From Mesorhizobium sp. NZP2298 (lineage in GTDB: Bacteria > Pseudomonadota > Alphaproteobacteria > Rhizobiales > Rhizobiaceae), in assembly GCF_013170825.1 (NCBI RefSeq), contig NZ_CP033365.1:62001-126000 (forward strand): a stretch of DNA of 64,000 nucleotides, written 5' to 3'. This document shows, in pieces, positions 20,832-58,743 of this stretch. A model generated the notes under the pieces. It was not told the origin of the DNA. It worked only from the letters and a program-made list of their open reading frames with translations, and searched no databases. The translations under genes were made by a program, and so were the position numbers. Every line of letters begins with the position of its first letter. Position 1 is the first letter of the stretch.

Positions 20832-20907
20832 GCCGCTTTAGCTCAGTTGGTAGAGCACATCATTCGTAATGATGGGGTCGCGTGTTCGAGTCACGCAAGC
20901 GGCACCA
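20832..20907 (+). tRNA. tRNA-Thr (anticodon CGT)
   Basis: This is a 76-base cloverleaf with acceptor GCCGCTT/AAGCGGC, a D-arm with GCTCAGTTGGTAGAGC, an anticodon loop TTCGTAA on an ATCAT/ATGAT stem, and a T-arm with GTTCGAG. CCA is encoded at 20905-20907. tRNA-Thr genes are common integration targets, and decayed mobile-element material lies directly downstream. Confidence 0.97.
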
Positions 20908-36899: not shown

Positions 36900-36959
36900 T
36901 TCTTCAATCCTTCCGTTACCGCCCAGCCCGTTATCGGCTGGCACTGGCGGCGCGTAGGT

Positions 36960-39013: not shown

Positions 39014-39076
39014 TGACAGTTTCTCTCGACCGTCGGGGCTGCGCGCATGATCTTCTCCCGAAGACCCCACCTCGCT

Positions 39077-39868
39077 CTATTTGCCCGATACCAGCGCCAA
39101 TGCGCGGATCGGGCTGCCGGTGCCGTGCTCGATCTTGAGCGGCGCCGCGATCAGGATCGCGCCCTTCGGCGGCAACTGATCGAGATTGCAGAGGCTGGCG
39201 AGGCCGTAGCGGTTGGCCTTGTGCATCAGCGTGTGCGCCGGGAATGGCGGTTCCATGCCGCCGGCCTTGCCGGCGTCGGTGCCAATGGTCTCCGAGCCCC
39301 AGCCCTTGATGTCCTTGCTGATCAGGAACTGGATGGCTTCAGCCGTCGGGCCGGGCGTATGCGGGCCGGTCTCGTTGGCGTTGAGGAACTCGGCTTCCGA
39401 GCCGTTGCGCTTGTACCAGTCGGTGCGCATCACCACCCACTCGCCGGCGTTGATGGCGCCATGCTTGGCTTCCCATGCCTTGATGTGGTCGACGGTGAGC
39501 AGGAAATCGGGATCGGCGGCGGCTTCCTTCGAGCAGTCGATGACATTGACCGGGCCGACGAAGTTCTGCGCCGGAATGGTGTCGGTGGCGCCGTCCGGGT
39601 AATCCTTGCCGCTGATCCAGTGCTGAGGCGCATCGAAATGCGTGCCCGAATGCTCGCCAAGCTTCAGCCAGTTCCATGCCCACCAGGGACCGTTCTTGTC
39701 GTAACGGGAGATGTTATGGATCTCGACCTTCGGCGTGTCGACCGCGAGTTCCGGCGGCAGCTTGATCAGCGGTGTATCGGGACCGAGCGGTGCCGACAGG
39801 TCGACCACCTTGATGGCGCCGGAAAGAAGCTGGCCGGCGACCTCGCCGAGGAGTTTTTGGGTGTCCAT
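39077..39868 (-). CDS. Cyclase-family metal-dependent hydrolase (isatin hydrolase/kynurenine formamidase-like)
   Basis: This 263-residue protein has the metal-binding motif HSGTHFDAPQHW (HxGTHxDxPxH) and later HTPGPTAEAI and GTDAG. The family opens amide or cyclic bonds. The overall pattern (VDHIKAWEAKHG, VVMRTDWYKR) is, from memory, closer to isatin hydrolases than to classical KynB. Isatin hydrolysis yields isatinate on the way to anthranilate, which fits the 2-aminobenzoyl-CoA genes nearby. The assignment to isatin is an inference. It leads the minus-strand operon. Confidence 0.75.
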   Translation of the reverse strand: MDTQKLLGEVAGQLLSGAIKVVDLSAPLGPDTPLIKLPPELAVDTPKVEIHNISRYDKNGPWWAWNWLKLGEHSGTHFDAPQHWISGKDYPDGATDTIPAQNFVGPVNVIDCSKEAAADPDFLLTVDHIKAWEAKHGAINAGEWVVMRTDWYKRNGSEAEFLNANETGPHTPGPTAEAIQFLISKDIKGWGSETIGTDAGKAGGMEPPFPAHTLMHKANRYGLASLCNLDQLPPKGAILIAAPLKIEHGTGSPIRALALVSGK

Positions 39869-39956
39869 GGTCTCTGTTCCCTCTTTTCGATGATGATCAA
39901 GGCTCGTCGCGGCCCTTAATATCCTACTAGACGAAAACATATGCATCTGCAATTAT

Positions 39957-39970
39957 CTTTAAGCATAAAG
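39957..39970. promoter_or_regulatory. Putative MarR-type operator, site A
   Basis: CTTTAAGCATAAAG has perfect CTTTA/TAAAG arms and lies in the divergent promoter region between the cyclase gene (39868) and the FAD oxidoreductase (39987). It matches the YTTYAAGCNTRAAA pattern also seen at 47590, 54753 and 55646, except at the last position. Confidence 0.55.
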
Positions 39971-39986
39971 GAAATGGGAACGGGGC

Positions 39987-41561
39987 GTGAGCGAGTTCGA
40001 CGCCATCTTTGTCGGGGCGGGCCACAACAGTCTGGCATGCGCCGCGCATCTGGCGCTCAAAGGCTGGAAAACCGGGATCTTTGAGCGCAATGCAACAATC
40101 GGTGGCGCTGTCCAGACCCGTGAATTCACCCTTCCCGGCTTCCGCCACGATTTCGGCGCGATGAATCTGAGCCTGTTTGCCGGCTCCGCCTTCCATCGGA
40201 AATATGCAAATGGATTGAAAGCGCAGGGGCTGGAGTTCGCGCCCGTCGCCGACTGCTTTGCCAGCGCGTTTCCGGATGGACGCTGGTTCGGCGTCAGCAA
40301 CGATCTGGAAAAGACCGCAACGCGCATGGCCGCTTTCTCCGCTGCCGACGCAGCGACATGGCGCAAGCTGGTCGCAGCCTTCCCGGCGGAAGCCGAGCAT
40401 CTGTTCCGGCTGCTCGGCTCGCCGATGGGCGCTCGCGCGCTTGCCGGCACGGCGTGGAACCTGTGGCGCAAGAAGGGTGTCACCGGCGCACTCGACACCG
40501 GTCGGCTGCTGTTGTCGTCGCCACGCGCCTGGCTCGAGGAGACTTTCGAGTCCCCACATGTGCGGGCAACGCTCGCCACCTGGGGCATGCATCTCGATTT
40601 CGCGCCCGATATCGCCGGCGGTGCAGTGTTCCCCTACCTGGAATCGATGGCGAACCAAAGCTTCGGCATGGTGCTGGGCAAGGGCGGGGCGGACACCATC
40701 ATCCGGGCTCTGGCCGGCATGGTGACCTCCGCCGGCGGCCAGATCGTCACTGGCGCCGATGTGGCCGAGATCACCGTATCCGGCGGCAAGGCGACGGGGG
40801 TGCGACTCGCTTCCGGTGAGACGCATACCGCCACCAAGGCGGTCATCGCAGGCGTCGCACCCCGGGCGCTGACCGGCAAGCTGCTGCCCAACGGTTCCGG
40901 CGACGCCGGCTTTGACACGTCGATGAAAAAGTTCCGCCACGCACCAGGCACGATGATGATCCACCTGGCGCTCGACGATCTGCCGGACTGGAGCGCGGGG
41001 GCCGAGCTTAGGCAGTTCGCCTATGTGCATCTGTCGCCCTCGCTCGACGCGATGTCGCGCACCTATCAGCAGGCGATGGCGGGCATGCTGCCGGACGAGC
41101 CGGTGCTGGTCGTCGGCCAGCCCTCCGCGATCGACCCGTCGCGCGCGCCTCAGGGCAAGCATGTGCTGTGGGTGCAGGTGCGCATGCTGCCAGCCGACAT
41201 CCTGGGTGATGCATCGGCCAGGATCGCGCCCGCGCATTGGGATCAGGCCAAGGAGGCCTACGCCGGGCGCGTGCTCGACATCATCGAGACCTATGCGCCC
41301 GGCCTGGGGGGCAAAATTCTCGGCCGGGCGGTGTTCTCGCCCATCGACCTCGAACGCGAGAACCCGAACCTCGTCGGCGGCGACCAGGTCTGCGGCAGCC
41401 ACCATCTGGCGCAGAACTTTTTGTTCCGCCCGGCGCGCGGCTATGCCGGCTGGAACACGCCGGTCAATAATCTGCATCTAACGGGCGCCGCGACATGGCC
41501 GGGCGCCGGCACCGGTGCGGCCTCCGGCTTCATGCTCGCGCAACAGCTTGGCGGGAGGTAG
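39987..41561 (+). CDS. FAD-dependent oxidoreductase, phytoene-dehydrogenase-like (paralogue)
   Basis: This 524-residue protein is related along its whole length to the one at 37442. It has the FAD motif DAIFVGAGHNSLACAAHL...IFERNATIGG and the C-terminal HLTGAATWPGAGTGAASG. The start is GTG 39987 with GGAACGGGG before it. It heads the plus-strand transcription unit ahead of a peptide-type ABC importer, so its substrate is probably the imported compound or a product of it. The substrate is unknown. Confidence 0.88.
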   Translation: MSEFDAIFVGAGHNSLACAAHLALKGWKTGIFERNATIGGAVQTREFTLPGFRHDFGAMNLSLFAGSAFHRKYANGLKAQGLEFAPVADCFASAFPDGRWFGVSNDLEKTATRMAAFSAADAATWRKLVAAFPAEAEHLFRLLGSPMGARALAGTAWNLWRKKGVTGALDTGRLLLSSPRAWLEETFESPHVRATLATWGMHLDFAPDIAGGAVFPYLESMANQSFGMVLGKGGADTIIRALAGMVTSAGGQIVTGADVAEITVSGGKATGVRLASGETHTATKAVIAGVAPRALTGKLLPNGSGDAGFDTSMKKFRHAPGTMMIHLALDDLPDWSAGAELRQFAYVHLSPSLDAMSRTYQQAMAGMLPDEPVLVVGQPSAIDPSRAPQGKHVLWVQVRMLPADILGDASARIAPAHWDQAKEAYAGRVLDIIETYAPGLGGKILGRAVFSPIDLERENPNLVGGDQVCGSHHLAQNFLFRPARGYAGWNTPVNNLHLTGAATWPGAGTGAASGFMLAQQLGGR

Positions 41562-41670
41562 GCCGACAATTTTATCGGGGCGACGAGAGGCAAGGCGCTG
41601 CTGCCCACGAAGCCTGAACCAATGACCTGACACTGCCGCGCAAAGACAATAACCAACAAGGGGAACGACC

Positions 41671-43200
41671 ATGACAATCAACAGACGCGAATTGCTTGGA
41701 TACAGTGCCGCCGCACTTGGTGTGGCCGCCGTTGGCCTGCCGCGGATCGCCAAGGCGGCCGCCGGCGAACTGACCATCGCCTACAATGTCAACCTGCCCT
41801 CCTGGGATCCGACCACCGGACCCTCGGCCGTCAACCCGACGATCCAGGGCCTCTATCAATCGGTCTTCGACCAGTTCATCCCACAGAAGCCGGACCTGTC
41901 CTTCGCGCCGGGCCTGCTCACCGAATGGGGCTGGAACGACGACCGCACCAAGGTGACGATGACGGTGCGCGAAGGCGTGACCTGGCATGACGGCTCGCCG
42001 TTCACGCCCGAGGACGTGGTCTGGTCGCTGCAGCGGGCAGGCGACGAAAAGACCGGCAATCCGATCCAGTTCGTCTGGAAGAACGTCAACAACTTCAAGA
42101 TCGACGGCAACAAGATCACCGGCGACGTCGTGCAGTTCGACCCGGTCTATTTCAAGTGGATGTCGTTCCTGACCGGCTACATCCTGCCGAAGGCCTATTA
42201 CGAGAAGGTCGGCGCCGAAGGTTTCGAGAAGGCGCCGATCGGCACCGGCCCGTACATGGTCGAAAAGTTCGAACGCAACGCCTTCCTGCGGCTCAAGGCC
42301 AATGCGAACTATTGGGGCGGCAAGCCGGCCTTCGAGAATGTGACGATCAAGTTCGTCACCGACGCGGCGAGCCGCGTGGCCGAGATCGAGTCCGGCTCCT
42401 CGCAGGTGACGCTCGAAATCCCGTACGAGGAATATGACCGGCTGATCGCCAAGGACGGGCTGGCCGGCTCGTGCAAGAACGTATCCGACATCGGCATGAT
42501 CTTCTTCAACAACAAGGACGCCATGCTGGACAAGAATGTCCGGCAGGCGGCCGTGATGGCAGTGGACAAGGAGCTTCTGGTCAAGCGGCTGCTGCGCGGC
42601 TACGGCCAGCCGATCGCGACGCTGGAGACGCCGGAATACGCGGCCTTCGACCCATCGATCAAGGTCGAGCACAATCCGGAAAAGGCCAAGGAGTTGCTCG
42701 CCGCCTCCGGCTACTCGCCGGAGAAGCCGGCCAAGGTCACCATCCAGACGACCAAGGGCTTCAAGCCCAAGGACTACGAGATGGTGCAGGCGATCGTCGG
42801 CATGTGGCGCAAGGTCGGCATCGAGGCGACGATCGAGGTCTACGAGATTGCCAAGCACTATGAACTGCGCGCCGCGCACAAGCTGGCGCCGGCGGCCTTC
42901 TACAATTGGGGCAACGCCATCGGCGATCCGACCACCTCGACCGGTTTCGCCATGTTCGGGCCGTCGCCGCACTCGTCCTGGAAGACCGACGATCTCGACG
43001 CCAAGATCGGTCCGCTCTGGGGCGAGAAGGACGAGGCCAAGCGCATCGCCGGCTGGAAGGCGGTCGACAAATACATCGCCGAGCAGGCCTATGTGCTGCC
43101 GCTGCTGCAGTTCGCCCAGCCGATCGTGCATGCCAAGGGCGTCAACGTCGTGCAGCATATCTCGGGCGCGCTGCTGCCGGCGCTGATGACCCCGGCCTGA
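41671..43200 (+). CDS. ABC transporter substrate-binding protein, peptide/opine type (Tat-exported)
   Basis: This 509-residue SBP_bac_5 receptor has a twin-arginine signal peptide (INRRELLGYSAAALGVAAVG, ending at AKA). The EGVTWHDGSPFTPEDVVWSLQ segment is the family signature. Such receptors bind peptides, opines, nickel chelates or other small compounds. The catabolic context suggests an aromatic or amino-acid derivative. A hairpin terminator follows, probably giving excess receptor over permease. Confidence 0.92.
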   Translation: MTINRRELLGYSAAALGVAAVGLPRIAKAAAGELTIAYNVNLPSWDPTTGPSAVNPTIQGLYQSVFDQFIPQKPDLSFAPGLLTEWGWNDDRTKVTMTVREGVTWHDGSPFTPEDVVWSLQRAGDEKTGNPIQFVWKNVNNFKIDGNKITGDVVQFDPVYFKWMSFLTGYILPKAYYEKVGAEGFEKAPIGTGPYMVEKFERNAFLRLKANANYWGGKPAFENVTIKFVTDAASRVAEIESGSSQVTLEIPYEEYDRLIAKDGLAGSCKNVSDIGMIFFNNKDAMLDKNVRQAAVMAVDKELLVKRLLRGYGQPIATLETPEYAAFDPSIKVEHNPEKAKELLAASGYSPEKPAKVTIQTTKGFKPKDYEMVQAIVGMWRKVGIEATIEVYEIAKHYELRAAHKLAPAAFYNWGNAIGDPTTSTGFAMFGPSPHSSWKTDDLDAKIGPLWGEKDEAKRIAGWKAVDKYIAEQAYVLPLLQFAQPIVHAKGVNVVQHISGALLPALMTPA

Positions 43201-43218
43201 TATCGGCCTGGAATTGCC

Positions 43219-43250
43219 GCGCGCCGTCCATAGCGACGGCGCGCATTTTT
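43219..43250 (+). terminator. Intra-operon terminator/attenuator between receptor and permease genes
   Basis: A perfect 10-bp stem GCGCGCCGTC / GACGGCGCGC around CATAGC is followed by ATTTTT. It lies 19 bases after the receptor stop and 42 bases before the permease start, so it would end most transcripts after the receptor gene. Confidence 0.88.
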
Positions 43251-43291
43251 CTATCAGGCATACGAGCCCGTGGGCTCCTGCAAAGATTTAC

Positions 43292-44299
43292 ATGCTCCTG
43301 CAACGATTCCTGATCCGTCTCCTGACGATGCTGATCACGCTGTTCGGCGTGGCCATCGTCGTCTTCGTCGTGATCCGCGTCGCGCCCGGCGATCCGATCG
43401 CCATGATGCTGCCGCCCGGCGCGACGGATGCCGACATCGCCCGCCTGCGCGCGCTGTACGGGCTCGACAAGACCATCGTCCAGCAATTCTTCATCTGGCT
43501 GTCCGGCGTGGTGCGCGGCGATTTCGGCACCTCGATCTCGCTGCGGCAAGACGTGCTCGGCCTGGTCTTCAACCGGCTGCCGGCGACGTTGGAGCTCGCG
43601 ATCGTCGCGCTGGTCATGGCGGTGGCGCTCGGCGGCACGACGGCGATCCTCGGCGCGCGTGAGCGTGGCACGGCGGTCGAGGCCGGCATCGACATCGCCA
43701 GCGGTGCGGCACTCTCCATTCCCGATTTCCTGTGGGGCCTGGTGCTGATCCTTTTGTTCGGCGTTCTGGTGCCGATCTTCGACATTTCCGGCCGGGTCTC
43801 TCCACAGCTCGATTTGCCCTTCGTCACCCAGTTCTATTTCTTCGAGAGCCTGCTTCGGCTGCGCTTCGACCTGACCTGGGATCTGTTGAAGCACATGCTG
43901 ATGCCGGCCGTTGCGCTGGCGCTGCCGCTGGCTGCAATCATCGCGCAGTTGCTGAAACAGTCGCTGAAGGAAGTGCTCGACCTCGACTATGTCGTGCTGG
44001 CCCGGGTGAAAGGATTTTCGGAGACGCAGGTCATCTTGCGCGAAGCGCTGAAGAACGCCGCTTTGCCGACCCTGACCCTGGTCGGCGTGCAGTTCACATT
44101 CCTCATCGGCGGCACGGTCATCGTCGAGCGGCTGTTCTCCTACGAAGGCCTCGGCAACATGGCGATCGATGCCGTCATCAACCGCGACCTGCCGCTCATC
44201 CAGGGCATCGTGCTGGTCTTCGCGCTGCTGTTCGTGCTGATCAACCTCGCTGTCGACATGATGTATGCGCTGCTTAATCCGAGGCTGCGCCATGGCTAG
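43292..44299 (+). CDS. Peptide-type ABC transporter permease (DppB-like)
   Basis: This 335-residue inner-membrane protein has six predicted helices, the opening MLLQRFLIRLLTMLITLFGV and the EAA loop VKGFSETQVILREALKNAAL. It is the first permease of the importer that starts at 41671. ATG 43292 is used; the frame upstream crosses the terminator and is not coding. It overlaps the next permease by 8 bases. Confidence 0.92.
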   Translation: MLLQRFLIRLLTMLITLFGVAIVVFVVIRVAPGDPIAMMLPPGATDADIARLRALYGLDKTIVQQFFIWLSGVVRGDFGTSISLRQDVLGLVFNRLPATLELAIVALVMAVALGGTTAILGARERGTAVEAGIDIASGAALSIPDFLWGLVLILLFGVLVPIFDISGRVSPQLDLPFVTQFYFFESLLRLRFDLTWDLLKHMLMPAVALALPLAAIIAQLLKQSLKEVLDLDYVVLARVKGFSETQVILREALKNAALPTLTLVGVQFTFLIGGTVIVERLFSYEGLGNMAIDAVINRDLPLIQGIVLVFALLFVLINLAVDMMYALLNPRLRHG

Positions 44300-45134
44300 A
44301 GCCACAAGACGCGGACTGAGCCCCAGGCTGTGGCTCGCCGGCGGCTGGCTGCTGCTGGCGCTGCTGGCGGCGATCTTCGCGCCACTGGTCGCGCCGCAGG
44401 ATCCGCTGGCACAGGATCTGATGCTGGAGCGGCTGCCGCCTTTCTGGCTCGATGGCGCCGAGCCCGGCTATTGGCTGGGCACCGACAGTCTCGGCCGCGA
44501 TCTGTTGTCCAGGCTCATCTTCGGCGGCCGCATCGCCTTCATCGTCGCCTTTGCCGCGGCCATCGCCGCCTGCCTGGTCGGCTCGACACTCGGGCTGATC
44601 GCGGGCTATTTCGGCGGCTGGGCCGACCGCGTCATCTCGCGCATCGTCGATGTCTGGATGGCGTTTCCGCCAGTGCTGTTCGCTATCCTTTTGGTGGCCG
44701 TGCTGGGAACGGGCTTGAGCTCCGTCATCCTGGCCATTGCCATCATCGACTGGACGCGCTTTTGCCGGGTGATCCGCGCCGAGGCGATGGGCCAGTCGCG
44801 CATGGACTATGTCGAAAATGCCCGCATCGCCGGCTATGGCCGCATCGGCATCATGCTGCGCGAAGTACTGCCCAATGTGGTGCCGTCGATCGTGGCGCTG
44901 CTGTCGCTGGAGATGGGCATCGCCGTCATCGTCGAGGCGATCCTGTCCTTCGTCAATCTGTCGATCTCGACCGACGACCCGACCTGGGGCGGCCTCATCG
45001 CCGAGGGCCGGCTGTCGATCCACCAGGCGTGGTGGGTGCTGGTGTTTCCGCTGATCACGCTCATCCTCACCGTGCTGTCGTTCAGCCAGTTCGGCGAAGC
45101 GTTGAAGACGCGTTTCGATCCGGTGCTGCGATGA
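44292..45134 (+). CDS. Peptide-type ABC transporter permease (DppC-like)
   Basis: This 280-residue permease has the DppC hallmark LGTDSLGRDLLSRLIFGGR and EAA loop ENARIAGYGRIGIMLREVLP. It has six helices in the inner membrane and pairs with the preceding permease. The start is inside the upstream gene end, and its stop overlaps the ATP-binding gene (ATGA). Confidence 0.92.
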   Translation: MARATRRGLSPRLWLAGGWLLLALLAAIFAPLVAPQDPLAQDLMLERLPPFWLDGAEPGYWLGTDSLGRDLLSRLIFGGRIAFIVAFAAAIAACLVGSTLGLIAGYFGGWADRVISRIVDVWMAFPPVLFAILLVAVLGTGLSSVILAIAIIDWTRFCRVIRAEAMGQSRMDYVENARIAGYGRIGIMLREVLPNVVPSIVALLSLEMGIAVIVEAILSFVNLSISTDDPTWGGLIAEGRLSIHQAWWVLVFPLITLILTVLSFSQFGEALKTRFDPVLR

Positions 45135-46009
45135 ACGCCTGTCTCGACATCGCCAATCTCAGCGCCGTGCTGCCGAACGGCGCCCGCGTGCTGCGCTCGG
45201 TGTCCCTCTCGGTGCAGCCCGGCGAGGTCCGCGCCCTGGTCGGCGAGAGCGGCGCCGGCAAGACAATGATAGGCAAGGCGGTGCTTGGCGTGTTGCCATC
45301 AAGCGTGCGCATCGTCGAAGGCGACATGCTGCTTGAAGGCGAAGCCCTCGGCAAATTGCAGCCAAAGGCGCGGCGTACGCTGATCGGCGCGCGCACCGCA
45401 CTGATCCCTCAGGACCCGCTGACCGCGCTCAACCCGTCGCGTCGCATCGGGCCGCAGATGACCGACCGGCTGGTGCGCATTCTCGGCTGGAGCAGCGACA
45501 AGGCCGACACACGGATCCGGCACTTGCTTGACGAGGTGCAGATCCGCGACCCCGACCGCGTGCTGAAAAGCTATCCGCATGAGCTCTCCGGCGGCATGCG
45601 CCAGCGTGTGCTGATCGCCGCCGCCTTCGCCGCCGAGCCCCGGCTGATCGTCGCCGACGAACCGACCACGGCACTCGACGTCACTGTGCAGAAGCAGATC
45701 CTGCGGCTGATCGCTGCGTTGCAGCGCGAGCACGGCACCGCGATCCTGTTCGTCACCCACGATCTCGGCGTCGTCGCCAAGATCAGCCAGAAGGTCTCGG
45801 TTCTCTATGCCGGCAAAGTGGTGGAGGAGGCTGAGACGGCCGCTCTCTTCGCGACGCCGCGGCATCCCTATACGCGCGCGCTGATGGCGGCGACGCCGCG
45901 CTACACCGATCCATTCGCCTCGCTGAAACCAGTGGACGAAGCGGTGCTGGCAGGGCTTGCGGCGGAGATCGCGGCGGCGGACCAGGCGTGGAGGCCCAGC
46001 CATGGCTGA
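45131..46009 (+). CDS. Peptide-type ABC transporter ATP-binding protein (DppD-like)
   Basis: This 292-residue nucleotide-binding subunit has Walker A GESGAGKTM, signature LSGGMRQR, Walker [13 protein letters not shown] and H-loop VTHDLG. It has the C-terminal HPYTRALMAATPR region of oligopeptide importers. It overlaps both neighbours by a few bases, so translation is coupled. Confidence 0.94.
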   Translation: MNACLDIANLSAVLPNGARVLRSVSLSVQPGEVRALVGESGAGKTMIGKAVLGVLPSSVRIVEGDMLLEGEALGKLQPKARRTLIGARTALIPQDPLTALNPSRRIGPQMTDRLVRILGWSSDKADTRIRHLLDEVQIRDPDRVLKSYPHELSGGMRQRVLIAAAFAAEPRLIVADEPTTALDVTVQKQILRLIAALQREHGTAILFVTHDLGVVAKISQKVSVLYAGKVVEEAETAALFATPRHPYTRALMAATPRYTDPFASLKPVDEAVLAGLAAEIAAADQAWRPSHG

Positions 46010-46838
46010 ACCGCTGTTTTCCGTGCGCGGGCTGAAGGTCGCGCTGCCAGACATGACACGCAAGCCGCTGATCGGCCGCGCGCCCTTGGCCGAGATCTTG
46101 AAGGGCCTGGATTTCGACCTGCCCAGGGGTTCGGTGACCGGCATTGTCGGCGAATCCGGGTCCGGCAAGTCGACGCTCGGCCGCGCTTTGGTGCGGCTCT
46201 TGGAACCCAGCGCCGGCTCGATCAGCTTCGACGGCCGCGATATCACGCATCTGCCGGAAGCGGAGTTGCGGCCATTGCGCCGCGACCTGCAGATGATTTT
46301 CCAGGATCCGATGTCGTCGCTCAATCCGCGCCGCACCATCGCCAGCATCATTGCCGCGCCGCTCAAGCAGAACGGGCTTGGCGACAGGCTCAAGGAACGC
46401 GTCGCCGAGGCGCTGCAGCGCGTCGGGCTGCCGCAAAGCTTCGCCACCCGCTATCGCCACGAACTGTCGGGTGGCCAGCGCCAGCGGGTCGGCATCGCGC
46501 GCGCCCTGGCGCTGTCGCCGAAATTCGTGCTGGCCGACGAGATCGTCTCCGGCCTCGACGTGTCGACACAGGCGCAGATCCTCACCCTTCTGGAAAAGCT
46601 GGCGGCGGAGATGGGCCTGACCGTCGCCTTCATCAGCCACGATTTGTCCGTCATCCGGCGGCTGTGCCGGCAAGTGATCGTCATGCGCGAAGGCGTGATC
46701 GTCGAAGCCAGCGCCACCGACGCTTTGTTCGACAGCCCTGGAAAGGCCTACACGCGCGATCTCATCGCAGCCATTCCGCTGCCCGAGATCGATGCCGGCT
46801 GGCTGGACATCCCTTCAGCCGGCAAGGCGCCGCCATGA
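46002..46838 (+). CDS. Peptide-type ABC transporter ATP-binding protein (DppF-like)
   Basis: This 278-residue second ATPase has Walker [10 protein letters not shown], signature LSGGQRQR, Walker B VLADEIVSGLD and H-loop ISHDLS. The Walker B region reads DEIVSGLD rather than DEPTSALD, a tolerated variant that keeps the catalytic Glu. It completes the importer 41671-46838. An exported VOC protein follows. Confidence 0.93.
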   Translation: MAEPLFSVRGLKVALPDMTRKPLIGRAPLAEILKGLDFDLPRGSVTGIVGESGSGKSTLGRALVRLLEPSAGSISFDGRDITHLPEAELRPLRRDLQMIFQDPMSSLNPRRTIASIIAAPLKQNGLGDRLKERVAEALQRVGLPQSFATRYRHELSGGQRQRVGIARALALSPKFVLADEIVSGLDVSTQAQILTLLEKLAAEMGLTVAFISHDLSVIRRLCRQVIVMREGVIVEASATDALFDSPGKAYTRDLIAAIPLPEIDAGWLDIPSAGKAPP

Positions 46839-46916
46839 TTGCATACGCACGCCGAAAAGCGGGCCTCGGACGTGCGACCGGCAAACAACCAGGTCCCGCC
46901 AATGGAGAGGACTGAC

Positions 46917-47516
46917 ATGAAGACGATACTTCGAAACGCAACGCTCGCCGCCGCTGTCCTTGGCAGCGCCGGCATGGCCTCGGCGGATTCGATCCCCGGC
47001 ATGCGCGGCCACGATCACACCGGCATCACCGTTCCCGACATGAAGCAGGCGGTCGACTTCTTCACCGAAGTGGTCGGCTGCAAGAAGGCGATGTCCTTCG
47101 GCCCATTCGCCGACGACAAGGGCACCTTCATGCAGGATCTTCTGGGCGTCGATCCCAAGGCTGTCATCGAACAGGTCACCATGGTTCGTTGCGGCTATGG
47201 ATCGAACATCGAGCTGTTCAAATACACCGCGCCCGACCAGAAGAACCTGACGCCGAAGAACAGCGACATTGGCGGTTTTCACATCGCCTTCTATGTCGAT
47301 GATGTCGCCGCGGCGAAAGCCTATCTCGACGGCAAGGGCGTCAAGACGCGCATGGGGCCCTTGCCGGTGAAGGAAGGCCCTGCCGCCGGCCAGACCATTC
47401 TCTATTTCCAGGCTCCCTGGGGACTGCAACTGGAAGCGATCAGCTATCCCGACGGCATGGCCTATGAGAAGGGTGCCGAGACAGTGCTGTGGAGCCCGAA
47501 GAACCCGGACAAGTGA
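46917..47516 (+). CDS. VOC (glyoxalase-fold) family protein with signal peptide
   Basis: This 199-residue protein has an N-terminal signal peptide (MKTILRNATLAAAVLGSAGM, cut near ASA-DS) followed by a vicinal-oxygen-chelate domain (GHDHTGITVPDMKQAVDFFT, GGFHIAFYVDD, GLQLEAISYPDG) with His and Glu metal-ligand candidates. Exported VOC proteins are uncommon. A role in periplasmic ring-cleavage, detoxification or ligand binding for the importer is possible but unproven. GGAGAGG precedes ATG 46917. Confidence 0.85.
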   Translation: MKTILRNATLAAAVLGSAGMASADSIPGMRGHDHTGITVPDMKQAVDFFTEVVGCKKAMSFGPFADDKGTFMQDLLGVDPKAVIEQVTMVRCGYGSNIELFKYTAPDQKNLTPKNSDIGGFHIAFYVDDVAAAKAYLDGKGVKTRMGPLPVKEGPAAGQTILYFQAPWGLQLEAISYPDGMAYEKGAETVLWSPKNPDK

Positions 47517-47523
47517 CCACCCG

Positions 47524-47556
47524 GCGCGCGCTTGCGGTTCGACACGCAAGCGCGCC
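47524..47556 (+). terminator. GC-rich hairpin after VOC gene
   Basis: GGCGCGCGCTTGCG and CGCAAGCGCGCC form a strong stem-loop 8 bases after the VOC stop. No T run follows, so it is a weak or factor-assisted terminator that separates the importer unit from the 2-aminobenzoyl-CoA operon. Confidence 0.5.
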
Positions 47557-47589
47557 GCCCAATACCCGCACAATGATTTCGATATAGAA

Positions 47590-47603
47590 CTTTAAGCTTG
47601 AAA
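47590..47603. promoter_or_regulatory. Putative MarR-type operator, site B
   Basis: CTTTAAGCTTGAAA lies 58 bases before ATG 47661, in the promoter region of the 2-aminobenzoyl-CoA operon. It shares the AAGC centre and flanking TTT/AAA with sites A, C and D. The operon encodes its own MarR protein. Confidence 0.65.
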
Positions 47604-47660
47604 TATCTTGCCGCCGGCGCGATACTTGAAGACACAGCAAGCGAAGAGGAGATCGCACAC

Positions 47661-49955
47661 ATGAAGGTTGCGGTTCTCGGCGGCGGACCAGCCGGCCTCT
47701 ACTTTGCCATTTCGATGAAGCTCCGGGACGCCGCCCACGATGTGACGGTGTTCGAGCGCAACCGCGCCGACGACACATTCGGCTGGGGCGTGGTGCTGTC
47801 GGCCGAAACGCTTGAGAATCTCGCGAAGAACGATCCAGTCAGCGCCGTCTGGATCAAGAAGCATTTTGCCTATTGGGACGACATTGCCGTCATTCATGAC
47901 GGCGTGCGCACGGTCTCGTCAGGCCACGGCTTCTGCGGCATCGGCCGCAAGCGGCTGTTGATCCTGCTGCAGCGCCGCGCCCGCGAACTCGGCGTCAAGC
48001 TGATGTTCGAGACCGATATCGCCGATCCCCGCCCCTATATGGAGACGCATGATCTGGTCGTCGCCGCCGACGGGCTGAACTCCAGGGCGCGCAACACCTT
48101 CGTCGACGTCTTCAAACCCGATATCGACACCCGCAAATGCAAGTTCGTCTGGCTCGGCACCCACCAGAAATTCGACGACGCCTTCACCTTCATCTTCGAG
48201 AAGACCGAGCATGGCTGGGTGTGGGCGCACGCCTACCAGTTCGACAGCGACACCGCGACCTTCATCGTCGAGTGCAGCGAACAGACCTGGGCTGCCTTCG
48301 GCTTCGGCGCGATGACGCAGCAGGAATCCATCGCGGTGTGCGAACGCATCTTCGCCAAGCATCTCGGTGGCCATGCGCTTATGACCAATGCCAACCATAT
48401 CAGGGGTTCGGCCTGGATCAATTTCCCGCGCGTGCTTTGCGAGCGCTGGTCGTATAAGAACCTGGCACTGATGGGCGATGCCGCCGCATCGGCGCATTTC
48501 TCGATCGGCTCAGGCACCAAGCTGGCGCTGGAAAGTGCCGTGGCGCTGGCCGACTATGTCGAAACCGAGCCGGATCTCGACGCGGCGTTCCGTAAATATG
48601 AGGACGCCCGCCGCACCGAGGTGCTGAAGCTGCAATCGGCGGCGCGTAATTCGCTCGAATGGTTCGAGGAGGTCGAGCGCTATCTCGGCCTCGACCCGGT
48701 GCAGTTCAACTATTCGCTGCTGACCCGCTCGCAGCGCATCAGCCACGAGAATTTGCGGCTGCGCGATGCCGAATGGCTGGGCGGCGCCGAGGAATGGTTC
48801 CAGCGCCAGGCGGGTGCCGGCGGCAACAGGCTGCGCCGGGCGCCGATGTTCGCGCCCTTCAAGCTGCGCGACCTCAGGCTCAACAACCGCGTCGTCGTCT
48901 CGCCGATGGCGCAGTACAAGGCCGTCGACGGCTGCCCGACCGACTGGCATTTCACCCATTATGCCGAGCGCGCCAAGGGCGGCGCCGGCCTCGTCTATAT
49001 CGAGATGACCTGCGTCAGCCCGCAAGGGCGCATCACACCCGGATGCCCCGGCTTCTACGCGCCTGAGCACGAGGTGGCGTGGAAGCGGCTGGTCGACTTT
49101 GTCCATACCGAGACCGAGGCGAAGATCTGCGCTCAGATCGGCCATTCCGGTGCCAAGGGTTCGACCCGGCTGGGTTGGGAAGGCACCGACGTGCCGCTGG
49201 CCTCGGGCAACTGGCCGATCATGGCCGCATCGGCCGTCGCATGGTCGCCCGAAAACCAGGTCCCGAAGGCGATGGACCGAGCCGACATGGATCTGGTGCG
49301 CGACCAGTTCGTGGCTTCTGCCGAGATGGCTGATCGCTGCGGCTTCGATATGCTGGAGATCCACGCCGCGCACGGCTATCTCCTGTCGTCCTTCATCACG
49401 CCGGTCACCAACCGGCGCACGGACGCCTATGGCGGTTCGCTTGAGAACCGCATGCGCTATCCCCTTGAAATCTTCCACGCGGTGCGCGCCGCCTGGCCGG
49501 CACAAAAGCCGATCTCGATGCGCATCTCGGCCAATGACTGGGTCGGCATCGAAGGCGTGACACCGGCCGATGCGGTCGAGATCGCGCGGCTGCTGCATGA
49601 AGCTGGCGTCGACATATGCGACGTCTCGGCCGGCCAGACTTCGGCACTGGCAAAGCCGGTCTACGGCCGCATGTTCCAGACGCCTTTTTCCGACCGCATC
49701 CGCAACGAGGTCGGCATGGCGACGATGGCGGTCGGCAACATCTACGAGCCGGACCATGTCAATTCGATCCTGATGGCCGGCCGCGCCGACCTGGTGGCGC
49801 TGGCACGGCCGCATCTTGCCGACCCCTACTGGACGCTGCATGCGGCAGTGACGCTTGGTGACCGCGCCGTCAAATGGCCCGATCCCTACCTGCCCGGGCG
49901 CGACCAGCTCTATCGTCTGGCGGAGCGCGATGCGGCAGCGGGGCTGAAAGTATGA
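47661..49955 (+). CDS. Bifunctional 2-aminobenzoyl-CoA (anthraniloyl-CoA) or salicylyl-CoA monooxygenase/reductase
   Basis: This 764-residue fusion has an N-terminal FAD aromatic hydroxylase domain ([37 protein letters not shown]) and, from about residue 394, an Old Yellow Enzyme-type FMN domain ([27 protein letters not shown]). This matches the 2-aminobenzoyl-CoA monooxygenase/reductase described from Azoarcus evansii, which hydroxylates and reduces the ring of the CoA thioester. Databases often label it salicylyl-CoA 5-hydroxylase. ATG 47661 follows GAGGAG. Confidence 0.88.
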
Positions 49956-50725
49956 CGGCCGCAACAGCGATCTCCGGCAAGCATGCGCTGGTCACCGGCG
50001 GCGGCTCCGGCGTCGGCCGGGCCATCGCGCTGGCACTGGCTGGCGCTGGCATCAATGTGACCATCTGCGGCCGCCGTGAAGCAGAACTCGCAAAAGTTGC
50101 CGGCGAAAGCGAAGGCATTTTCGGCATCGCTGCCGATGTCACCAGCGAGGCATCCATGGCCTCGCTCTACGAGACGGCGCAAGCCGCGCGCGGGGCCTTC
50201 GACATCGTCGTCGCCAATGCCGGCATGGCCGGCAGCATGCCGGCGCACAAGACCGCGCTGGCCGACTGGCAGAAGACGCTCGACGTCAACCTGACCGGCG
50301 CCTTCCTGACTGTGAAGCCAGCGCTGGCCGGGATGGCCGCGCGCAAGGCAGGCCGCATCGTGTTTATCGCTTCGACGGCGGGATTGAAGGGCTACGCCTA
50401 TGTCGCGCCTTACGTCGCGGCCAAGCATGGCGTCGTCGGCCTGATGCGGGCGCTTGCCGCCGAGACGGCGAAATCCGGCGTCACCGTCAACGCCGTGTGC
50501 CCGGGCTTCGTCGAGACCGACATGCTGGAGGAGTCCATCCAACGCATCGTCGAAAAGACCGGTCGCTCGGCCGGTGAGGCGCGGGCAAGCTTAGCCTCGA
50601 CCAATCCGCAAGGCCGCTTCATCCAGCCGCAAGAGATCGCCGCCGCCGTGCTGTGGCTGTGCGGCGACGCGGCGGCATCGATCACCGGACAGGCAATTTC
50701 GATCTCAGGAGGCGAGACATGGTAG
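49952..50725 (+). CDS. SDR family oxidoreductase (3-hydroxyacyl-CoA dehydrogenase-like)
   Basis: This 257-residue short-chain dehydrogenase has the cofactor motif [11 protein letters not shown] in VVANAGMAG and the catalytic S-x-Y-xxx-K (Ser in IASTAG, then YVAAK). In this operon it most likely acts on a hydroxyacyl-CoA intermediate of a beta-oxidation-like route. The start overlaps the preceding stop (ATGA) and the end overlaps the MarR gene. Confidence 0.9.
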
Positions 50726-51189
50726 CCGGCCCGCTGCCCGCACCGTCGGGACCCGGCAAGGACAGGCTGCGCCTGTGGATCAGGCTGCTGCGTGCCTCGC
50801 GCACGATCGAGGCCGAACTGCGGGAGCGCCTGAAGAAAGAATTCGATACGACCTTGCCGCGCTTCGATGTGATGGCAGCACTCTACCGCGCCCCCGAAGG
50901 CATGCTGATGAGCGACCTGTCGCGCTTCCTGCTGGTCTCCAACGGCAATGTCACCGGCATTGTCGATCGGCTGGTTTCGGAAGGGCTGGTCGCCCGCGCC
51001 CGCCGCAATGGCGACCGCCGCACCTCCATGGTGCGGCTGACGGAGGAAGGCACCAAATCCTTCGCCACCATCGCCGCGGCGCATGAGGGCTGGATCGGTG
51101 AATTGCTGGGCAAGGTCAGCGAGGAAGATGCGCGCCGGCTGACCGGCATGCTGACCTCGTTCCGCAGCAACTGGGAGGGACGCGAATGA
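50719..51189 (+). CDS. MarR family transcriptional regulator
   Basis: This 156-residue winged-helix regulator has recognition helix [20 protein letters not shown] and wing [19 protein letters not shown]. Being inside the CoA-thioester operon, it is likely an aryl-CoA-responsive repressor that binds the CTTTAAGCTTGAAA site upstream. AGGAGGCG precedes the ATG. It is a diverged paralogue of the MarR at 36960. Confidence 0.92.
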
Positions 51190-51997
51190 CCGGGATGGCC
51201 GGCCTCAAGCCGAAGCATTTCCTGTGGGAGGTCGAGGGCAGGATCGCGAAGGTCCGGCTCGACCGGCCGGAGCGCAAGAACCCGCTGACCTTCGACAGCT
51301 ATGCCGAGTTACGCGATACGTTCCGCGACCTTGTCTATGCCGACGATATCGACGCCGTGGTGTTCCTCTCCAATGGCGGCAATTTCTGCTCCGGCGGCGA
51401 TGTCCACGACATTATCGGCCCGCTGGTCAAGATGGACATGAAGCAGCTCCTCGCCTTCACCCGCATGACCGGCGATTTCGTCAAGGCGATGCTGAATTGC
51501 GGCAAGCCGATCATCGCGGCTGTCGACGGTGTGGCGGTCGGCGCCGGCGCCATCATCGCCATGAGTTCCGATATCCGCATCGCCACGCCGGAAGCCAAGA
51601 CCGCCTTCCTGTTCACCCGCGTCGGCCTCGCCGGCTGCGACATGGGCGCCTGCGCGATCCTGCCGCGCATCATCGGCCAGGGCCGTGCCGCCGAACTGCT
51701 CTACACCGGCCGCACCATGACGGCGGCCGAGGGCGAGCGCTGGGGCTTCTACAACAGGCTGGTCGATGCCGCATCGCTCGAGGCCGACGCGCTCGACATG
51801 GCAGCGCGCATCGTCTCCGGTCCGACCTTCGCCCATGGCATCACCAAGACGCAACTCAACCAGGAATGGTCGATGGGCCTCGATCAGGCGATCGAGGCGG
51901 AAGCACAGGCGCAAGCGATCTGCATGCAGACACGCGACTTCGAACGTGCCTACAAGGCGTTCGTGGCCAAGGAAAAGCCGGTGTTCGAGGGCAATTG

Positions 51998-51998
<1 letters not shown>
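51186..51998 (+). CDS. Enoyl-CoA hydratase/isomerase family protein
   Basis: This 270-residue crotonase-fold protein has the oxyanion-hole motif [13 protein letters not shown] and the second conserved segment [20 protein letters not shown]. It probably hydrates a ring-derived or ring-opened enoyl-CoA in the aminobenzoyl-CoA route. The ATG overlaps the MarR stop, and its TGA overlaps the acyl-CoA dehydrogenase start. Confidence 0.9.
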
Positions 51999-53146
<1,148 letters not shown>

Positions 53147-53206
53147 CAGCGACATTGACGGCATTCGATTTTGACACTTGGTTTTTGGAATACGGGGAGG
53201 CTTGAA

Positions 53207-53602
53207 ATGCACGAGGTTCTGCAGCCTGAAGGCTGGGCCAAACCGGTCGGCTACGCCAATGGCGTCGCGGCGCGTGGGCGTCTCATCTTCGTCGGCGGAC
53301 AGGTCGGCTGGAACGGGCAATGCCAGTTCGAGACCGACGACTTTGTCGGCCAGGTGAAACAGACACTGGAGAACATCGTGGCGGTGCTGGCGGAGGCAGA
53401 CGCCACGCCTCAGCACATCACCTCGATGACCTGGTATTTCACCGACAAAGCCGAATATCTGGCCAATCTCAGGGGCATCGGCGAAGCCTATCGCGAGGTG
53501 ATCGGCCGGCATTTTCCGGCGATGGCCGCCATGCAGGTGGTGGCACTGGTCGAGGACCGCGCCAAGGTGGAAATCCAGGCGACCGCGGTCATACCGGATT
53601 AA
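53207..53602 (+). CDS. RidA-family protein lacking the canonical catalytic Arg
   Basis: This 131-residue member of the Rid/YjgF/UK114 family (PVGYANGVAARGRLIFVGGQ ... ITSMTWYFTDKAEYLANL) follows the acyl-CoA dehydrogenase by 60 bases with GGGGAGG before its ATG. At the position of RidA Arg105 (F-P-A-R-S) it has Met (F-P-A-M-A), so ordinary imine deaminase activity is doubtful. Such variants occur in catabolic operons and may act on a pathway enamine or imine by another mechanism. Confidence 0.87.
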   Translation: MHEVLQPEGWAKPVGYANGVAARGRLIFVGGQVGWNGQCQFETDDFVGQVKQTLENIVAVLAEADATPQHITSMTWYFTDKAEYLANLRGIGEAYREVIGRHFPAMAAMQVVALVEDRAKVEIQATAVIPD

Positions 53603-53612
53603 TCTGTCGTCA

Positions 53613-54704
53613 TTACCCGCGAAGGCCTGCCTGCCTCAGCAGCGGCAGAACGTGATCGCAGAAATAGGGCAGCTCCTGCGTGTAGTTGACGAAGGAAAGC
53701 GCGATGCCCTGATAGCCGTGCCCGGCAATGGCGGCCATGTCGGCGGCAATCGTTTCCGGGGTTCCGATCAGGGGATAGGTGCCGGCGCCGCCGGCGAAGC
53801 GCTGGCGGTAGCGGTCATAGGCGTGCGGGTCGTGCGACCGCGAGAATTCCTTCTTGCCGGCCATATGGGCATCGACCGCGTCATGGTCGGCCAGATCGAC
53901 CGCGTAGCGCGTGTAATAGGCCTGCGCCTCTTCCATCGTCGGGCGGCAGACGACATGCGCCACCGTATAGACGCCGACATCACGGCCGACCTTGTCGGCC
54001 CGTTCGCGGATGTCGGCGACATGTTTGCCGGCATCGCTCATTTCGGAAAAGGTCGTGAACAGATAGTCGCACCGGGCGGCGGCGAAATCGCGGCCCGGAC
54101 CGCCGAATGCGGCATTCATGGTCACCGGACGCGGGATCTGCAAACTGGCTGGCCGACTGACCGCTTCCTTGAGACGATAGTAGGTGCCTTCATAGTCGAG
54201 AGGCTCGGTAGAGGCATAAAGCTTTTCGAGGATTTCGATCCATTCGGCCGCCTGGTCGTAGCCCTTTTCGACGAGCGGCGTGCCGAACATGCCGAATTCC
54301 TTCGGGTTCCAGCCGCAGACGATGTTGAGGCCGGCGCGGCCCTGGCTGATGTGGTCGACCGTCGCCAGCGCCTTGGCGGCATAGAGCGGATGCACCAGCG
54401 GCACATGCACGGTCATGAACAGGCCGATCTGCTCTGTGGCGACGCTAAGCGCCGCCGCCCAGGTGAAGGTCTCGAACGACCATTCGCGCACCTTGTTGCG
54501 GCCGCCAAAGCCGCGCCAGCGCGCGATCGGCAGCAGAAACTCCAGCCCGGCACGATCGGCGATTTGCGCCGCCGTCAGATTGTCCTGCCAACTCGCCGTC
54601 CAGCGTTCCGACACATCGGTGATGGCAAGCCCGCCATCGGCATTGGTCGAAAAGACGCCGAGTTTCAGTTTGTTCGAACCGTGCAGGGGATGCGCTTTGA
54701 TCAT
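53613..54704 (-). CDS. LLM-class FMN-dependent monooxygenase, RutA-like
   Basis: This 363-residue bacterial-luciferase-like (two-component FMNH2) monooxygenase has segments LKLGVFSTNADGGLAI, RWRGFGGRNKVREWSFETFT, DHISQGRAGLNIVCGWNP and AAFGGPGRDFAAARCDY, similar to RutA and related N-heterocycle or sulfone monooxygenases. A partner flavin reductase is not seen. It is convergent with the Rid gene and divergent from the aldolase, across operator site C. ATG 54704 is the homology start. Confidence 0.85.
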   Translation of the reverse strand: MIKAHPLHGSNKLKLGVFSTNADGGLAITDVSERWTASWQDNLTAAQIADRAGLEFLLPIARWRGFGGRNKVREWSFETFTWAAALSVATEQIGLFMTVHVPLVHPLYAAKALATVDHISQGRAGLNIVCGWNPKEFGMFGTPLVEKGYDQAAEWIEILEKLYASTEPLDYEGTYYRLKEAVSRPASLQIPRPVTMNAAFGGPGRDFAAARCDYLFTTFSEMSDAGKHVADIRERADKVGRDVGVYTVAHVVCRPTMEEAQAYYTRYAVDLADHDAVDAHMAGKKEFSRSHDPHAYDRYRQRFAGGAGTYPLIGTPETIAADMAAIAGHGYQGIALSFVNYTQELPYFCDHVLPLLRQAGLRG

Positions 54705-54752
54705 CTCGGGAACTCGCGGCGGGAGGCTACACGCTAGGCTCGCACCAGAATA

Positions 54753-54766
54753 TTTCAAGCCTGAAA
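54753..54766. promoter_or_regulatory. Putative MarR-type operator, site C
   Basis: TTTCAAGCCTGAAA, flanked by A and T, gives six-base perfect arms ATTTCA/TGAAAT. It lies between the divergent LLM monooxygenase (54704) and aldolase (54828) genes and matches sites A, B and D. Confidence 0.65.
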
Positions 54767-54827
54767 TAGCTTCGCCTCGCGGTCGTTTGCGGATATGGAT
54801 TTGAGCAAGTCGAAAAAGAGGATGGAC

Positions 54828-55589
54828 ATGAGCGAGTTCCGCCAGAAATGCATCGGCAAGACGAACCTCGTCGGTTCCTTTGCCGCCATTCCCCATCCCG
54901 TTGCGGTCGAAGTGATGGCGCTATCCGGCCTCGACTTCCTCTGCATCGACTGGGAGCATGCCCAGATTTCGCGCGACATGATCGAGACCATGGTGCGAGC
55001 CGCCGATGTGCATCGCGTGCCGGCGATGGTGCGCGTTCCCGGCCATGCGCCGGAGGCGATCCAGGCGGCGCTGGACAGTGGCGCGCAAGGCGTGCTGGTG
55101 CCGCGCGTCTCGACCGCCGCCGAGGCGGCGATGGCCGCCAAAGCCTCGCGCTATCCGCCGTTGGGCGAGCGCGGCGTCGGACCCGGCCGGGCCGCGGGCT
55201 ATGGCTATCGCATTCCCGAATATCTTGCCGGCGCCAACGACAGAACCGTCGTTGCGGTCCAGGTCGAGACTGCGGCGGGGCTCGCCAACATCGAGGCGAT
55301 CGCGGCGGTCGACGGCGTCGACGTGATCTTCGTCGGCCCTGGCGACCTTTCGGTGTCGATCGACGCGATCGGACCGCAAGGCGCCGACAAGCTCAATGCG
55401 GCGATCCGGACGATCATTGCCGCTACGATCGCACATGGAAAGACATCAGGCATATTTTGCGCCAGCCCACAGACGATCGGCCGTTGGGCAGCCATCGGTG
55501 CGAGTTTCTTCGTGCTGGCCAGTGACACGATGTTTCTGGGCGCCGGCGCGGCGGCCAACTTTGCCGCGGCGCGCGACGAATTGGCATGA
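54828..55589 (+). CDS. HpcH/HpaI aldolase family protein
   Basis: This 253-residue class II, metal-dependent aldolase-fold protein has DFLCIDWEHAQIS, the loop ERGVGPGRA with a conserved Arg, and metal-ligand segments VQVETAAGLANIE and DVIFVGPGDLSVS. Relatives cleave 4-hydroxy-2-ketoacids released in aromatic ring degradation into pyruvate and an aldehyde. AGAGGA supports ATG 54828; in-frame ATGs at 54795 and 54822 are alternatives. Confidence 0.88.
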   Translation: MSEFRQKCIGKTNLVGSFAAIPHPVAVEVMALSGLDFLCIDWEHAQISRDMIETMVRAADVHRVPAMVRVPGHAPEAIQAALDSGAQGVLVPRVSTAAEAAMAAKASRYPPLGERGVGPGRAAGYGYRIPEYLAGANDRTVVAVQVETAAGLANIEAIAAVDGVDVIFVGPGDLSVSIDAIGPQGADKLNAAIRTIIAATIAHGKTSGIFCASPQTIGRWAAIGASFFVLASDTMFLGAGAAANFAAARDELA

Positions 55590-55645
55590 AACGGGCGCAT
55601 TGGGGCAAAAAAGGCGTATCGCCAGGGCAACAGGCCACCCAAACT

Positions 55646-55659
55646 TTTTAAGCTTAAAA
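55646..55659. promoter_or_regulatory. Putative MarR-type operator, site D
   Basis: TTTTAAGCTTAAAA is a perfect 14-base palindrome about 118 bases upstream of the aminotransferase start. It shares the AAGC-centred pattern with sites A to C and suggests that the aminotransferase-ABC-class V unit belongs to the same regulon. Confidence 0.6.
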
Positions 55660-55776
55660 CTTTCGCCTTGAAAAGTGCGGCACTTTGGATAGCATCCAAG
55701 GATCGATGGTGACCGCGATGCCGGAGGGGTTGCCGGCCAGTCCATCGCAGTGCTTCGGGTGGGAGGGGTTCAGTCC

Positions 55777-57864: not shown

Positions 57865-57882
57865 GCGGCAACCCAGAACAGG

Positions 57883-57917
57883 GGCGTGCCGGCTTAAAAG
57901 GCCGGTACGCCTCGTTT
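57883..57917 (+). terminator. Intra-operon terminator/attenuator after amino-acid receptor gene
   Basis: GGCGTGCCGGC pairs with GCCGGTACGCC (one G-U) around TTAAAAG, followed by TCGTTTT. It starts 19 bases after the receptor stop and resembles the hairpin at 43219, again placed to favour receptor over permease. Confidence 0.75.
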
Positions 57918-58027
57918 TCGTTGATGATCCTTCCCCGGAGCCACAGGTCAGCGCCGCAAAACCGCTTTCGGTGTTTCCGGGCCCTGCTCCAGCGTCACGG
58001 GACGCAAAACGGTTCGGGAACGCTCCC

Positions 58028-58702: not shown

Positions 58703-58743
58703 CCATCAGACCGTTCGCCATAGCACTTCGCAGGAGACATCCC

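Follow-up and report, generated by a model that had tools for sequence, protein, structure and literature searches.

A conserved AAGC-centred dyad marks a putative MarR regulon of anthraniloyl-CoA metabolism in Mesorhizobium sp. NZP2298

A 64,000-nt stretch of the Mesorhizobium sp. NZP2298 genome (hereafter the window, with coordinates counted from its first letter) carries four related palindromes that an initial annotation had proposed to tie scattered transcription units into one MarR regulon. A shared MarR-type regulon for these AAGC-centred dyads is well supported by the sequence comparisons described below. We propose that the dyads are probably operators of MarR-B, a MarR-family protein encoded within one of the units concerned, through which a regulon centred on anthraniloyl-coenzyme A (anthraniloyl-CoA, or 2-aminobenzoyl-CoA) would be repressed until a pathway intermediate relieves the repression. 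All four sequences were confirmed at the positions first given for them: dyad 1, CTTTAAGCATAAAG (39957..39970), in the gap between an isatin hydrolase gene and a flavin adenine dinucleotide (FAD)-dependent oxidoreductase gene; dyad 2, CTTTAAGCTTGAAA (47590..47603), upstream of abmA; dyad 3, TTTCAAGCCTGAAA (54753..54766), in the gap between an LLM-class monooxygenase gene and an aldolase gene; and dyad 4, TTTTAAGCTTAAAA (55646..55659), upstream of the class I aminotransferase gene AT1. They approximate TTYAAGCTTRAA and are self-complementary at 12, 10, 12 and 14 of their 14 positions, respectively.

The consensus of the initial annotation, searched with up to two mismatches, gave 12 strand-matches across the window (expectation, 2.07), and none of 100 shuffles reached 12; this count is partly circular, since the consensus was derived from these same sites. 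The whole genome (7,336,816 bases) was scanned with the pattern YTTYAAGCNTRAAR, whose last base was set to R to admit dyad 1. Eight strand-matches were obtained at six places, and none with the same pattern reversed. The six places are dyads 1 to 4, a match at 15479 that falls inside a 665-codon, pnp-like reading frame, and a match at 4264374. A looser pattern, TTYAAGCNTRAA, gave 12 strand-matches at ten places (control, 6). The five of these that are not among the five operators, dyads 1 to 4 and the site at 4264374, each fall within an open frame (164 to 761 codons), which suggests that they are coding DNA, and no further intergenic-looking place emerged from this genome scan. Over 81 genomes of the genus, own genome included, YTTYAAGCNTRAAR yielded 512 strand-matches versus 102 with the pattern reversed, which implies that some matches in each genome are background; at least one match was present in 73 of the 81.

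The match at 4264374, TTTCAAGCCTAAAA, is situated about 4.1 Mb along the contig in a gap between two divergent transcription units and belongs to a kynurenine/anthranilate gene cluster. On one side lies a ligase gene (positions 6531-8156 of locus L087) whose product falls in the TIGR02262 benzoate-CoA ligase family (375.9 bits over a cut-off of 375.25); its closest solved relative, 4wv3 (E 2.3e-89), identifies it as a putative anthranilate-CoA ligase. A tryptophan 2,3-dioxygenase gene (TIGR03036, 432.3 bits over 390.7) is co-directional with it, and on the other side of the dyad stands an alpha/beta hydrolase gene (NF058665, 361.3 over 320) that may encode kynurenine formamidase. A kynureninase gene (TIGR01814, 391.9 over 246.4) is found nearby on the strand opposite to the dioxygenase and is thus not behind the dyad in this genome; in one diverged genome of our set (G055) it is in line with the ligase and dioxygenase genes. 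A motif taken from the 2-aminobenzoyl-CoA locus therefore points to distant genes that make and activate anthranilate. The proposal of a shared MarR-type regulon stands, and its originally drawn extent, which missed this fifth and remote operator, was incomplete.

Relatives were sampled by fetching 80 loci through similarity to MarR-B and not through presence of a site, and a dyad was scored when it occurred within 250 bp upstream of a gene with at most one mismatch. It was detected upstream of abmA in 72 of the 74 loci with readable upstream DNA (57 exact; the misses are L061 and L067), upstream of the LLM monooxygenase gene in 29/29, of the aldolase gene in 24/24 and of AT1 in 22/22 loci. 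Mononucleotide shuffles of these four sets of upstream stretches gave a mean of 0.05 or less. For nine further genes in these loci (SDR, ECH, ACD, Rid, AT5, VOC, SBP5, Perm3 and ABC2), several of them operon-internal, no dyad at all was seen within 250 bp upstream. The family-3 solute-binding protein gene (SBP3) had one in three of 34 loci (L028, L029 and L031), where the LLM monooxygenase, aldolase and AT1 genes were not found; loci L025 and L085 are also without these three genes, yet have no dyad at SBP3. The isatin hydrolase gap was scored in the best 30 of the 70 genomes that have the gene, our own among them, and every one of the 30 carries CTTTAAGCATAAAG exactly; the ligase dyad was present in 30 of 30, again counting our own (best 30 of 47 genomes). 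Located by coordinates, the ligase dyad was also recovered in all eight diverged genomes inspected (G005, G006, G013, G042, G051, G054, G055 and G076). In 29 aligned ligase gaps the dyad columns averaged 99.5% identity versus 72.3% for the rest, with 4 of 287 windows of the alignment reaching the dyad's value, and in 50 aligned abmA upstream regions the figures were 91.6% versus 54.5%, with 8 of 137 windows. Further alignments, whose members were selected by an exact site, are used as illustration only. The initial annotation had suggested a genome scan and a comparison of promoters in related genomes as checks, and both agree with it: the sites are rare elsewhere (six places in 7.34 Mb) and conserved upstream of orthologous units. 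A chance origin of the dyads was rejected on this rarity and conservation.

Loci of several distant relatives, among them L028, L029, L070, L072 and L076, have a tandem of AAGC-like 14-mers upstream of abmA, placed directly head to tail; of the corresponding pair in the window the downstream copy is intact and the upstream one degenerate.

Promoter-like hexamers, picked by eye and falling in columns that are conserved in the alignments, were found close to several dyads. Ahead of the abm operon the pair spans 47598..47626 on the plus strand (TTGAAA 47598-47603, 17 bp, GATACT 47621-47626) and its TTGAAA is the right half of dyad 2. The LLM monooxygenase pair lies on the minus strand at 54731..54758 (TTGAAA 54758-54753, 16 bp, TAGCGT 54736-54731), with TTGAAA inside dyad 3, and the remote ligase has TTGAAA-17-GATCCT, where TTGAAA overlaps the dyad. 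This arrangement, a TTGAAA half-dyad 16-17 bp from a -10-like hexamer at three promoters, is what one would expect if the dyads were conserved promoter elements, for example part of the -35 region, and not operators. We regard that explanation as very improbable: both halves of the dyad are conserved, the dyads lie at differing distances and, between divergent genes, in both orientations, and the nine genes listed above, some of them operon-internal, have no dyad within 250 bp upstream.

The window encodes two MarR-family candidates for the binding protein. MarR-B (50719..51189, plus strand, 156 aa) is encoded within the abm operon and has a MarR domain (PF12802, 46.9 bits over 27; PF01047, 43.4 over 24.6, in the longer frame 50653-51189). 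Its nearest solved chain is 3boq (88.5 bits). A protein search with MarR-B returned 7,906 of 8,000 scored candidates at E ≤ 1e-20, and the names of the best 120 were no more specific than MarR family. MarR-A (36960..37571, minus strand; a 203-aa frame of uncertain true start) likewise has a MarR domain (PF12802, 47.2 over 27; PF01047, 44.2 over 24.6), with 3cjn (147.2 bits) and 7kym as nearest solved chains. Both genes had been placed inside the set delimited by the four palindromes; MarR-B does lie within 39957-55659, and MarR-A is outside it. The initial annotation had put forward one of the two as the common regulator and left open which; the comparisons below make MarR-B likelier than MarR-A.

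Among the 81 genus genomes MarR-B occurs in 71 and MarR-A in 70, nearly always together, so it is the outlier genomes that decide between them. A YTTYAAGCNTRAAR match and MarR-B were found together in 71 genomes, a match without MarR-B in two (G012 and G064), MarR-B without a match in none, and neither in eight (Fisher p 1.4e-9, relatedness ignored; MarR-A does nearly as well, with 70 of 81). In G012 contig ends interrupt the abm operon (L240 and L241), and MarR-B falls in the missing part. G017 possesses both MarR genes and a single exact match, at the isatin hydrolase gap.

MarR-A, being encoded in the unit downstream of dyad 1, belonging to a family whose members bind such dyads and co-occurring with the sites in 70 of 81 genomes, might be thought to bind the AAGC dyads in place of MarR-B. 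The more distant loci make this quite unlikely. No MarR-A match was obtained at E ≤ 1e-20 in 17 of the 29 genomes behind them, and the abmA dyad (at most one mismatch) is kept in 11 of the 13 such genomes with readable abmA upstream DNA, in four of them exactly. In G006 and G013 (99 and 100% complete) a MarR-B relative of 42-47% identity is encoded just upstream of abmA with a perfect dyad in between, and the ligase dyad is present; at the thresholds applied, searches for MarR-A and isatin hydrolase found no match in either genome. Across 19 MarR-B orthologs the recognition-helix stretch retains 93-100% identity; MarR-A reaches 14%.

MarR-A also appears to have an operator of its own. A second dyad, ATATGCATCTGCAATTATC (39939..39957, core TGCANNTGCA at 39942-39951), overlaps the first base of dyad 1 and is a candidate MarR-A operator. 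Within the genus, 30 of 30 isatin hydrolase gaps contain the TGCANNTGCA core; among 17 further loci selected through MarR-A it was seen in 15 and missed in L319 and L320. Only seven of these 17 loci have an AAGC dyad (at most one mismatch) in that gap, and of the ten without it eight keep TGCANNTGCA. Extending the pattern to ATGCANNTGCAANTATC gave a single exact match genome-wide, plus three that differ at one position (control, 0). We conclude that the TGCANNTGCA dyad is probably the operator of MarR-A, and that, most simply, control by MarR-B was added at the isatin hydrolase promoter in some lineages, so that this promoter may read two signals, one through each protein. Because the AAGC operators persist without MarR-A and MarR-A loci carry a different conserved dyad, binding of all sites by MarR-A was rejected as the main reading, and MarR-B is the likely binder, and the best candidate, for the AAGC dyads.

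Two TGCANNTGCA-type dyads, 27 bp apart, also occur at the start of a third MarR-like gene elsewhere in the genome (L335, G000:C1:3620653-3620696); these are two of the one-mismatch matches, and this type of dyad may hence suit several MarR proteins. In a Chelativorans-related genome (G100) the gap between the family-3 solute-binding protein and isatin hydrolase genes contains an AAGC dyad (L307:6862-6875) together with two TGCANNTGCA dyads.

Several observations weigh against this reading of MarR-B and its sites. In distant relatives the dyad core is often ATAC, ATGC or AGGC despite an unchanged MarR-B recognition helix, and, conversely, the diverged MarR-B relatives that sit next to perfect AAGC dyads share only 57% identity in the helix (79% in L312). 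Co-occurrence across the genus cannot choose between the two MarR proteins, and the deciding genomes are partly drafts or metagenome-assembled genomes, where an apparent absence of MarR-A may reflect a gap. Two loci with MarR-B, L061 and L067, show no abmA dyad at up to one mismatch, and G064 has a perfect AAGC dyad (C11:160369-160382) without a match to either MarR and without an abm homologue in the 18 kb examined. The -35-like box of AT1 (55668) is just downstream of its dyad, so simple occlusion of the -35 region does not hold for every site. Finally, nothing known connects the LLM monooxygenase, the aldolase or AT1 with anthraniloyl-CoA. The loci with only one of the two partners would fit an unlinked regulator of another family that binds the dyads while both MarR proteins control something else. 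This is unlikely in our view, as in the loci examined the abm unit contains or adjoins a MarR-B gene, even where MarR-B identity has fallen to 42-47%, and as a regulator gene accompanied by its operator is the usual MarR arrangement. We retain MarR-B as the probable regulator.

The genes behind the dyads indicate what such a regulon would do. The gene next to dyad 1, at first labeled a cyclase, is by sequence an isatin hydrolase (39077..39868, minus strand): it matches isatin hydrolase B, 4j0n, at E 6.6e-129 and has HSGTHFDAPQH at residue 73, in agreement with the HxG[T/A]HxDxPxH metal motif (PMC6117287). Downstream on the same strand are genes for a phytoene-desaturase-like FAD oxidoreductase (FAD2, 37442..39070; PF13450, PF01593), for an IorA-like 2-oxoacid oxidoreductase subunit (34746..36944; PF02775, and TIGR03336 at 271 bits, below the cut-off of 650.9) and for an IorB-like subunit (33164..34753; NF006179, 704.9 bits over 348). 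IorAB-type 2-oxoacid:ferredoxin oxidoreductases belong to a class that makes acyl-CoA from 2-oxo acids. Since the product of isatin hydrolase, isatinate (2-aminobenzoylformate), is a 2-oxo acid and IorAB-like genes follow, it is plausible that IorAB converts isatinate to anthraniloyl-CoA. On the breakdown side AbmA (47661..49955, plus strand) is a bifunctional aryl-CoA hydroxylase/reductase that scores 1262.9 bits over 1078 with NF006101, a model named salicylyl-CoA 5-hydroxylase/oxidoreductase, and has the fusion. Its substrate is presumably 2-aminobenzoyl-CoA, because the abm dyad is common to the anthranilate-CoA-ligase-like gene. The units that can be read thus appear to make or use anthraniloyl-CoA, supplied from isatin and from kynurenine.

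From these observations we infer a mechanism in which a MarR-B dimer would sit on each dyad, cover the -35-like box at the abm, LLM monooxygenase and ligase promoters, block the polymerase and so repress transcription, until a pathway intermediate releases it. The supply side of the regulon would comprise isatin hydrolase with IorAB, and the anthranilate-CoA ligase with tryptophan dioxygenase and the alpha/beta hydrolase; the abm operon would consume the anthraniloyl-CoA formed. The LLM monooxygenase/aldolase and aminotransferase/transporter units would be further members. MarR-B would regulate itself, as its gene is behind dyad 2, and MarR-A would bind the TGCANNTGCA dyad at the isatin hydrolase gap. 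Our first guess for the inducer, held with confidence a little below even, is anthraniloyl-CoA. The same MarR-B regulon could respond instead to a free acid (anthranilate, isatinate or an indole acid), a substantial possibility although below even: the related MarR_73 of Variovorax, which responds to indole-3-acetic acid (IAA), binds the free acid (PMC9613470), whereas by gene content the compound common to the abm operon and to both supply branches, from isatin and from kynurenine, would be anthraniloyl-CoA.

On the sequence evidence we consider the regulon well supported and larger than the initial annotation saw. In the open-licence literature, judged by title and start of abstract among the matches listed, no description of a MarR regulon of the anthraniloyl-CoA pathway was found. 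CouR and other MarR proteins have been reported as responsive to aromatic CoA esters. Like CouR, MarR-B would be a MarR repressor adjoining an aromatic acyl-CoA pathway; unlike it, MarR-B belongs to another pathway, shows low similarity (a weak match, 27.2 bits), and its CoA-ester effector is suggested by gene content. Regulators of the KynR and AntR types exert substrate-responsive control of tryptophan-kynurenine-anthranilate genes in Pseudomonas, a likeness to the system in the window, from which they differ in regulator family and in serving the catechol and not the CoA-ester route. The nearest solved relatives 3boq (MarR-B) and 3cjn (MarR-A) are listed in the Protein Data Bank without function; 7kym, to which MarR-A is related, is a Bradyrhizobium MarR (PMC11630574).

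A close parallel is offered by the iad auxin-degradation loci of Variovorax. They too combine two MarR proteins, MarR_73 (IadR) and MarR_50 (IadR2), with IorAB homologues in a locus for the catabolism of indole-derived compounds, and one MarR represses from a site upstream of catabolic genes: MarR_73 acts from a site in the iadR-iadA interval, and IAA releases it, and for MarR_50 neither ligand nor site was found (PMC9613470). Unlike in iad, a second class of dyad, that of the AAGC dyads, serves at least five places here, including the remote kynurenine cluster. No iadDE-type ring-hydroxylating dioxygenase was detected in the 30 window open reading frames scanned with Pfam, the rest of the window and of the genome not having been searched, and the locus is on that account not classed as iad. 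More tentatively, it is possible that MarR-B senses anthraniloyl-CoA as a hub and derepresses three parts of the pathway at once, namely the isatin (auxin-related) branch, the branch from tryptophan through kynurenine, and the lower part that both share, with the TGCANNTGCA site of MarR-A adding an indole-side signal in a two-input gate, and that IadR2/MarR_50 may likewise sense a downstream CoA ester rather than auxin. The idea could explain why two MarR proteins occur together in such loci; for iad, the published account explains only the auxin-binding one (PMC9613470). The work also provides a precise candidate operator and regulator for the breakdown of compounds derived from tryptophan and indole in Mesorhizobium and its relatives, and would link both supply routes, chemically distinct as they are, to a single CoA-ester intermediate.

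The remaining genes of the region, all on the plus strand unless noted, were assigned as follows. FAD1, a second phytoene-desaturase-like FAD oxidoreductase (39987..41561; PF01593, PF13450), is followed by a family-5 solute-binding protein, two permeases and ABC ATPase(s) (41671..46838) and by a VOC (glyoxalase-fold) protein (46839..47516; PF00903). After abmA come an SDR dehydrogenase (frame 49874..50725, true start uncertain; PF00106), and, beyond MarR-B, an enoyl-CoA hydratase family protein (51186..51998; NF006107, 480.6 bits over 330) and an acyl-CoA dehydrogenase (51995..53146, start approximate; PF00441, PF02770). A Rid-family (enamine/imine deaminase-like) gene (53171..53602; TIGR00004 at 53.3 bits, below the cut-off of 106.25) closes the abm operon after the acyl-CoA dehydrogenase gene. 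The LLM-class monooxygenase (53613..54704, minus strand; PF00296) diverges from the HpcH/HpaI-type aldolase (54795..55589; PF03328), and AT1 (55750..56976, start uncertain; PF00155, and NF004770 at 434.2 bits over 422) precedes a family-3 solute-binding protein, a permease and a class V aminotransferase-like protein (57067..60012). The last of these (58744-60012) scores 599.9 bits over 352.35 with TIGR01976 and, together with the family-3 solute-binding protein and the permease, is a conserved neighbour of the abm operon in many fetched loci. Elsewhere, the window contains a tRNA gene at 20832-20904 (plus strand) and a bacterial small signal recognition particle RNA at 1243-1339 (minus strand).

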